Source: an uncultured Caryophanales bacterium | Lineage (GTDB): Bacteria; Bacillota_I; Bacilli_A; RFN20; CAG-449 | Reading direction: 5' to 3' | DNA length: 33,818 nt | Assembly: GCA_945929875.1 (NCBI GenBank) | Contig: CAMEOO010000011.1 | Location: 1-33,818 of the forward strand | In this document: in pieces, positions 15,267 through 16,775 of the stretch | How the letters are laid out: each line of letters starts with the position of its first letter | How positions within the stretch are numbered: the stretch's first letter is position 1 | The notes under the pieces: model-generated | Seen by the model: only the letters and a program-made list of their open reading frames with translations | Databases searched by the model: none | Told to the model about the DNA's origin: nothing | Translations under genes and position numbers: made by a program

Positions 15267-15493
15267 TTTATACTAAATAATAATTAAAGTGCCATTTAGG
15301 TGACTAATGATAGCTTGAAAAAATTGAAATAAAGAATAATATCAATTTTTCTAGTTTCACATTTTGGATTTAATATATAGTGCATATTCGCTAGCTTCTT
15401 CGATAAGAAGAGCATACTAAGTTATGTTAATTGTAATTGTTAGTGAATCTTGGAAAATATATCAGATATACAAAATTAGAGTATAGAAAATTA

Positions 15494-15522
15494 TTGAAAT
15501 AATATGGCATTTATGCTATATT
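15494..15522 (+). promoter_or_regulatory. Sigma-A promoter of the HTH-nuclease gene
   Basis: The -35 box TTGAAA (15494-15499) and -10 box TATATT (15517-15522) are separated by exactly 17 nt. Transcription would start near 15529, leaving a leader of about 11 nt that just includes the GAGGTGA ribosome site at 15529-15535. The preceding part of the 15267-15539 gap shows one hairpin at about 15393-15413 without a T-run and nothing else. Confidence 0.65.
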
Positions 15523-15525
15523 ATT
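15498..15525. promoter_or_regulatory. 28-bp palindrome over the promoter, likely operator
   Basis: The arms AATAATAT (15498-15505) and ATATTATT (15518-15525) are perfect. The inner GCAT/ATGC continues the symmetry and only the G/T pair between them breaks it. The palindrome covers the spacer and -10 box. The downstream gene encodes an HTH protein, so autorepression is the simplest inference. Confidence 0.6.
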
Positions 15526-15539
15526 TTAGAGGTGAACAT

Positions 15540-16775
15540 ATGGATATCTGTACTAAAGTAAAAAATATTAGAAAGCAACTAAAGATGACTCAAGTTGATT
15601 TTTCTAAAGAGTTAGGTGTTGATTATACGACTTTAAGCAGAATTGAAAGAGGTATATTTAAACCTAGTTATAGATTTATGGAAAAACTAAAAATAGTTTG
15701 CGGAAAATATGGAATTGAGATGGAAGAAGAAACAAACTTGTTAAATATTGAATCAGTCAAAACTACCGATTTATTTGATGACATTGTTAATGTAATTGAT
15801 TCATCTTATTCATTAGCAAATAAAACGGTTAATTACATATTAATACAAAGAAATTGGCTAATAGGAAAACGAATTGTTGAAACCGAATTAACAAATAGAA
15901 AAGATGATTATGGTAAGGCGGTAATAAAAGAATTATCACAGAAACTAACCCAAAAATATGGATCGGGTTTTGAAACAAGAAACATCTACTACTTTATTGA
16001 TTTTTACAATTCATTTCCAAACATTTTGCAATCAGTGAATGCAAATTCTTTATTAAGCTGGACACACTATGTAAAATTGCTACAAGTATCTGATGTTGAA
16101 GCAAGAAATTGGTATGCTTCCGAAGCAGTAAAAGAAGCTTGGAGTGTTAGAACTTTACAAAGAAATATATCGTCGCAATATTATAATAGAATGGTATCCT
16201 CTTTAGTAAAAGAGCGTGTTCATAATGAGATGGTGGAATTAAATAGGATTAATCAACAAAGCAAACTTGATTACATTAAGGATCCTATGATATTAGAATT
16301 TTTAGGTCTGAGTGAAAATAATACATATCTTGAAAGTGATGTTGAAAAAGCTATTATAAGTCACTTACAAAAATTTCTTATGGAGTTAGGCAAAGGATAT
16401 GCTTTTGTCGCAAGGCAACAAAGAATTCATACCGAAAAAGAAGATTATTTCATTGATTTGGTGTTCTATAATTATATTCTTAAATGCTTTGTACTTATTG
16501 ATTTGAAAACATCAAAGATTACTCACCAAGATGTTGGACAAATGGATATGTATATTAGAATGTATGATGAATTGAAGAAAGCCTCTGATGATAATCCAAC
16601 ACTAGGTATTGTACTTTGCTCAGATACGGATGAAGACATAGCCAAATATTCTATCTTGAAAGGTAACGAACAACTCTTTGCTTCAAAATATAAATTGTAT
16701 TTGCCAACAGAATCAGAATTAAGAAGCGAGATAGAAAAAGAAAAGAATTTTTATCTAGAAAAAAATAAAAAATAA
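15540..16775 (+). CDS. XRE-type HTH fused to YhcG/DUF1016 PD-(D/E)XK nuclease
   Basis: The product is 411 residues. The start at 15540 follows AGAGGTGA; an earlier ATG at 15504 lies inside the promoter palindrome without a ribosome site. Residues about 5-55 form an XRE-type helix-turn-helix (MTQVDFSKELGVDYTTLSRI). Residues about 80-215 match the DUF1016 N-terminal domain (NWLIGKRIVE...YGKAVIKELSQKL, GSGFETRNIYYFIDFYNSFP). Residues about 245-400 are the YhcG nuclease fold: Glu269 in ESDVEKAI, RQQRI, Asp306 in YFIDLVFY, Asp321-x-Lys323 in LIDLK, and Gln334, consistent with an intact active site. YhcG-type proteins are PD-(D/E)XK nucleases often found near restriction or mobile loci. Here the gene is alone, with its own promoter. 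A defence or self-regulated nuclease role is inference. Confidence 0.85.
   Translation: MDICTKVKNIRKQLKMTQVDFSKELGVDYTTLSRIERGIFKPSYRFMEKLKIVCGKYGIEMEEETNLLNIESVKTTDLFDDIVNVIDSSYSLANKTVNYILIQRNWLIGKRIVETELTNRKDDYGKAVIKELSQKLTQKYGSGFETRNIYYFIDFYNSFPNILQSVNANSLLSWTHYVKLLQVSDVEARNWYASEAVKEAWSVRTLQRNISSQYYNRMVSSLVKERVHNEMVELNRINQQSKLDYIKDPMILEFLGLSENNTYLESDVEKAIISHLQKFLMELGKGYAFVARQQRIHTEKEDYFIDLVFYNYILKCFVLIDLKTSKITHQDVGQMDMYIRMYDELKKASDDNPTLGIVLCSDTDEDIAKYSILKGNEQLFASKYKLYLPTESELRSEIEKEKNFYLEKNKK

Follow-up and report, generated by a model that had tools for sequence, protein, structure and literature searches.

A solitary YhcG-family nuclease gene with a fused, probably autoregulatory XRE domain and a conserved palindrome over its own promoter

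The 33,818-nucleotide stretch of DNA analysed here (the window) comes from an uncultured Caryophanales bacterium (contig CAMEOO010000011.1) and carries, on its forward strand at 15540..16775, a single open reading frame in which the Pfam domains HTH_3, DUF1016_N, and YhcG_C follow one another in this order. The N-terminal XRE/HTH_3 DNA-binding domain (residues 1-66; 15540..15737, forward strand) contains four predicted helices and is matched by HTH_3 at residues 7-50 with 40.4 bits (cut-off 23). It is followed by an all-helical DUF1016_N domain (residues 81-217; 15780..16190, forward strand; 133.6 bits, cut-off 32.8) and by a YhcG_C domain of the PD-(D/E)XK nuclease type (residues 244-398; 16269..16733, forward strand; 184.2 bits, cut-off 32.5), the latter delimited by Pfam, conservation, and predicted fold. 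The original prediction of an XRE helix-turn-helix joined to a DUF1016/YhcG nuclease in one gene is thus borne out by three domains above cut-off, and its YhcG-like assignment of the C-terminus by the profile search. The list of open reading frames gives this frame as 15504-16775 (423 aa); its ATG at 15504 was rejected as the start because it falls within the promoter spacer. The ATG at 15540, preceded by a ribosome-binding site recognized by inspection (AGAGGTG, 15528..15534, forward strand), is the likely start and yields a 411-aa protein, to which a 410-aa orthologue from another genome (G402) corresponds over its full length with 80% identity.

The catalytic residues of the nuclease domain, Glu269, Asp306, and Asp321-x-Lys323, had been described as intact in a numbering that fits the 411-aa form, and an alignment of 71 sequences agrees, with E269, D306, and K323 conserved throughout and D321 nearly so. 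An AlphaFold2 model built from these 71 sequences (mean pLDDT 70.5, pTM 0.43, with residues 259-283 less sure) features a four-helix HTH at a pLDDT of about 80-90, a helical middle domain, and, towards the C-terminus, a helix (265-283), three strands (287-297, 302-311, 316-323), a second helix (329-345), and a final strand (355-360); a poor model derived from 6 sequences (pLDDT 45.6) was discarded. This helix-strand-strand-strand-helix-strand order is that of the PD-(D/E)XK core. Fold searches with Foldseek were weak overall, with no match at E < 0.001. The best matches of the nuclease part were NucS/EndoMS (E 0.006-0.013), in agreement with the assignment of YhcG to the YraN/NucS-type nucleases in 2005 (PMC1189080), and the HTH matched the DNA-binding domains of SinR, DdrO, and C.Kpn2I. 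Motif and predicted fold together suggest that the C-terminal domain cuts nucleic acid by means of a Mg2+ site formed by E269, D306, D321, and K323. DUF1016_N is weakly similar to the HTH domains of ParB/Noc (Pfam HTH_ParB, E 0.004; Foldseek) and may constitute a second DNA-binding part. Domains, catalytic residues, and core fold all place the protein in the YhcG/DUF1016/COG4804 family (PF17761 plus PF06250), with which it shares the combination of DUF1016_N and PD-(D/E)XK nuclease as well as the catalytic motif. The best PADLOC match of the protein is PDC-S02 (PDLC04807; E 2e-133, residues 61-407), a phage defence candidate class; PDC systems have been described as awaiting characterisation (PMC10855318).

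A consensus scan places a sigma-A-type promoter directly before the gene (15494..15522, forward strand), consisting of a -35 element TTGAAA at 15494-15499, a 17-nt spacer, and an extended -10 element TATATT at 15517-15522 with a TG on its 5′ side. It matches the consensus at 10 of 12 bases, in keeping with the good sigma-A promoter of the original prediction, and is the top-scoring site of the region, where promoter-like sites number 11 against 12.7 expected from shuffles; the promoter is a consensus match alone. The palindrome foreseen over spacer and -10 was found at 15497..15526 (unstranded). It measures 30 bp, comprising two 14-bp arms, AAATAATATGGCAT and ATGCTATATTATTT, with one mismatched pair and a 2-nt spacer TT, and extends from the last half of the -35 element across the entire spacer and the -10 element. 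This likely operator, whose conserved core TATGGCATTTATGCTATA lies at 15503-15520, is the sole palindrome of such quality within the window. Simulations with the same dinucleotide content produce a comparable palindrome in 0.8% of 273-bp intergenic regions, and its dyad score is attained in 0.1% of 60-bp upstream stretches. As a single DNA strand the palindrome folds well (z -4.5).

Genes with the same domain order were found in six of 279 genomes of the order, namely that of the window (G000) and G402, G408, G416, G391, and G406. The G402 genome belongs to a different family from that of the window, whereas the remaining four, among which the G408 copy is cut by a contig end, fall into one further genus. 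In 392 genomes sampled across the phylum, no additional fusion turned up outside the order. YhcG genes without an HTH are very common: among the best 80 loci from the genome collection, through which alone Clostridia were covered for fusions, most match only from about residue 45-75 on, and no HTH was found in an N-terminal extension, in contrast to the window protein. Apparent long N-terminal extensions at L040, L020, L026, L065, and L076 were searched for an HTH and contained none. The HTH part, queried alone or as a two-sequence alignment, had no relative among viral contigs. Within the samples searched, the fusion is limited to one order. Placed on a YhcG tree, the fusions split into two clades that branch close to the base of a mostly unfused subfamily, with two label changes, and a single origin of the fusion may also be compatible with this tree; the six fusions do not amount to six independent events, G408, G416, and G391 being close relatives. 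Comparison of the window gene with its G402 orthologue (dN 0.26 for the HTH and 0.12 for the nuclease, dS about 1.8) indicates purifying selection on both parts. The window genome also harbors a second, unfused YhcG gene, solitary between housekeeping genes (L145:4357-5280, contig C17), and a G402 protein 90% identical to it (L200) is followed by a gene for a 65-aa XRE protein.

The upstream palindrome is conserved along with this domain order. A dyad described by TATRGCRTWWATGCNATA lies over the promoter of five of the six fusions (window, G402, G391, G416, and G408), which span two families and three genera. Each of the five genomes has a single copy when up to one mismatch is allowed, always at the fusion promoter, and the reversed pattern gave no match in them; as TATRGCRTWWATGCNATA was built from these very sites, the informative part is the lack of other copies. 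The same search found no copy in the G406 genome, whose fusion lacks the dyad and has a diverged HTH with the recognition helix TRATVNRL, as opposed to SFSTVNRL and DYTTLSRI in the other fusions. The G402 dyad, TATGGCGTTTATGCCATA, occupies the same position as that of the window; it pairs normally where the window has its mismatch but is broken at another pair. Taken alone it scores at chance level (0.41) and counts only as the orthologous site. It retains the -35 element and the promoter spacing, and from the -35 to the ribosome-binding site 32 of 39 bases agree with the window (16 of 18 in the core), even though 69% of the synonymous sites differ between the two genes and the sequence farther upstream is unalignable. 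The G391 and G416 fusions carry TTATATAGCATTAATGCGATATAA at -31 to -7, with an almost identical site in G408; judged by eye, it fills the spacer and -10 of a TTGTTT-17-TATAAT promoter. The dyad scores of these three are attained in 0.2-0.3% of simulated stretches. The g22 clade shows TATAGCATTAATGCGATA in the same promoter context, sharing 15 of 18 bases with the window operator, a level that a random palindrome reaches in about 1e-4 of draws. The HTH domains of the two fusion clades are just 31-36% identical, yet 14-15 of 18 operator bases are common to both. Nearby inverted repeats scoring at least 8 were present at four of 87 unfused YhcG genes, all different in sequence.

The closest relatives of the HTH are encoded by XRE genes of about 60-70 aa that head restriction-modification (R-M) operons of types I, II, and III or precede nuclease genes, their stop codon usually lying within about 20 nt of the start of the following gene. 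The 30 different downstream genes scanned, a set defined by the similarity of their XRE neighbors to the window HTH, include five matches to HsdM_N/N6_Mtase and five to HSDR_N, and further matches to D12 and N6_N4 methylases, a cytosine methylase, Tsp45I, MmeI, GmrSD, and YhcG. At a Ruminobacter locus (L048) XRE and YhcG are adjacent genes. Because its nearest HTH kin are short XRE genes heading R-M operons, the fusion looks like a controller joined to a nuclease, and the simplest history would be a controller and nuclease gene pair that later became fused. The same XRE family also occurs fused N-terminally to a cytosine DNA methylase in a 427-aa frame with inverted repeats upstream (L180 and L181, in G053 and G056), which parallels M.SsoII. 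Upstream of a short XRE gene that precedes a type I-like HsdR gene (L170, G082:C7) lies TATAGCA-AAAAG-TGCTATA, a palindrome made of the half-site of the fusion operator (TATAGCA) at a different spacing, and several other short XRE genes share AAAGTGATATAAT at the upstream position.

As far as the translations allow them to be named, we take the neighbors of the fusion in the window to be genes for thymidine phosphorylase, dacF, spoIIAA/AB, sigF, and spoVA. No methylase or antitoxin gene adjoins the fusion in the window or in the stretches read of G402, G416, G391, and G406, so that the complete fusions agree with the stand-alone arrangement that had been proposed; for the window copy, the intergenic regions on either side contained no small partner gene, and there was no defence gene nearby. 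While the window fusion sits between the thymidine phosphorylase gene and dacF, a 97%-identical piece (residues 263-411) lies beside lysS in the G007 genome (L143:2099-2703), where it also adjoins a RelB/RelE-like toxin-antitoxin pair. At the site of the window fusion, the congeners G001, G002, G005, and G007 presumably carry a Sir2-like gene after the phosphorylase gene, and G006 has a different gene of 331 aa. YhcG remnants flank the fusions of G402, G391, and G406 (L195:7345-7967, L207:69-359, and L208:726-1030), a sign of rapid locus turnover. Together with the patchy distribution, these arrangements suggest that the gene is horizontally mobile. A dispersed repeat, CATTAGTGCACTAACGATAGCGAGGGTAAATT, occurs at L197/L199 (G402:C72:21291 and 22036), L200, L201, L202, and L229-L234, and on contig C3 of the window genome (G000:C3:7206), with a terminator-like hairpin GGCATAACTTC...GAGGCTATGCCTTTT behind some of the copies. 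The repeat adjoins DUF1016 genes in G402 (three copies), lies near a DUF1016 fragment in G067, and elsewhere is found near other accessory-looking genes; the reversed pattern gave no match, and there was no Rfam match at these loci or in the window. About 240 bp 5′ of the fusion gene, CATTTAGGTGACTAATGATAGC (15290-15314) resembles the start of CATTAGTGCACTAACGATAGCGAGGGTAAATT with 4 mismatches in 19 and may represent a decayed copy.

The same design is known from characterized enzymes. CR.NsoJS138I, a fusion of a C protein with a restriction endonuclease (REase), is active both as an REase and as a regulator (Liang and Blumenthal 2013; PMC3850674). The window fusion likewise has an XRE-type controller N-terminal to a nuclease in one chain and a symmetric likely operator upstream; it differs in that CR.NsoJS138I combines a PvuII-type REase with a linked methylase, whereas the window fusion has a YhcG nuclease, no methylase, and its likely operator over the spacer and -10. 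It may work like a C-REase (CR) fusion, but its nuclease is YhcG_C rather than of the PvuII type and it is no member of that class; nor does it belong to the C-protein type II R-M systems, as there is no linked methyltransferase, or to the toxin-antitoxin modules, as there is no adjacent antitoxin. M.SsoII binds a 15-bp palindrome and represses its own gene, its two functions being mutually exclusive (PMC6100179), and the N-terminal HTH region of M.SsoII and M.Ecl18kI spans 55-71 aa and recognizes a site that is rare or unique in the genome (PMC6100179, PMC3978073). Here, too, an N-terminal HTH on a DNA-acting enzyme meets a palindrome in the enzyme's own promoter region, although M.SsoII and M.Ecl18kI are cytosine methylases whose HTH has the further effect of stimulating a partner REase gene. 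The short XRE genes of R-M operons belong to the same HTH family as the window protein but are separate genes of 60-70 aa.

Taken together, the locus probably represents a solitary mobile YhcG (DUF1016/COG4804) nuclease gene with an autoregulatory XRE domain, arisen by fusion of a controller with a nuclease. Since the dyad is kept at the same place in other genera, the protein very probably regulates its own synthesis through its own promoter, as the original prediction had it and as the conserved single-copy dyad in five genomes suggests; we strongly infer autoregulation, and repression is its most likely form because the dyad covers the spacer and -10. A dimer formed through the HTH would bind the dyad and block RNA polymerase, which would keep the nuclease level low. 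The ancestor of the HTH would have been a short XRE controller of the R-M-operon type, joined to a YhcG nuclease much as in the C-protein/REase fusions.

Activation, or activation followed by repression, as exerted by the C proteins of type II R-M systems, would hold the nuclease back when the gene enters a new cell. CR.NsoJS138I, with the same architecture, does activate its own promoter (PMC3850674), the XRE kin head R-M operons, and the gene is mobile; yet a dyad on the spacer and -10 rather than upstream of the -35 occupies the usual site of repression, a promoter with good consensus elements seemingly needs no activator, and no methylase is present that would require a head start, all of which renders activation distinctly unlikely. 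A hairpin role for the palindrome, as RNA or single strand, in translation control or as a terminator, rather than one as a protein site, is improbable in the extreme despite its good folding as single-stranded DNA, given that it lies upstream of the expected transcription start, that TTGTTT-17-TATAAT in G391 and G416 would begin the RNA at the ATG itself, and that the palindrome bears neither a terminator-like site nor an Rfam match.

The fusion of HTH and nuclease, where most short XRE relatives are separate genes, might also mean that the HTH aims the YhcG domain at particular DNA, such as foreign promoters or mobile elements, the upstream dyad being an incidental target. This is very unlikely: the site occurs once per genome, always at the gene's own promoter, and in both clades covers the -10 and spacer, a position that fits a regulator; a nuclease directed to this site would cut its own gene. 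Somewhat less improbable, albeit still unlikely, is an ordinary XRE repressor coupled to a YhcG part with another task, e.g., repair or structure-specific cutting, and with no role in defence. The resemblance of the domain to NucS/EndoMS, the link of the family to YraN/NucS-type nucleases (PMC1189080), and the lack of a defence gene nearby fit this explanation, whereas the patchy, mobile distribution differs from that of housekeeping repair genes, the family figures in PADLOC as a candidate for phage defence, and the HTH kin are restriction genes. For the autoregulated nuclease proposed above, use against incoming DNA would be the likeliest role, presumed from the PDC-S02 class, the mobility of the gene, and the kinship of its HTH with restriction-associated XRE genes. 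Candidates for what would spare the host are a low dose of the nuclease, a need for modified or unusual DNA, and the helical DUF1016_N domain. By analogy with M.SsoII, it is conceivable, if a long shot, that the operator serves as a safety catch: promoter binding and catalysis would exclude each other, the nuclease would be both scarce and idle, and its titration or displacement by incoming DNA would switch on synthesis and cutting at once. That damage or phage DNA releases the nuclease, as also put forward originally, found no backing in sequence or context.

Solitary genes for YhcG nucleases, candidates for a role in defence, are very common, which raises the question of how a lone nuclease spares its host. 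With a regulator physically tied to the nuclease and a single operator conserved across genera, control and activity would become testable on one protein and one 40-bp DNA, and the principle of the C-protein/REase and HTH-methylase fusions would extend to a methylase-free nuclease.
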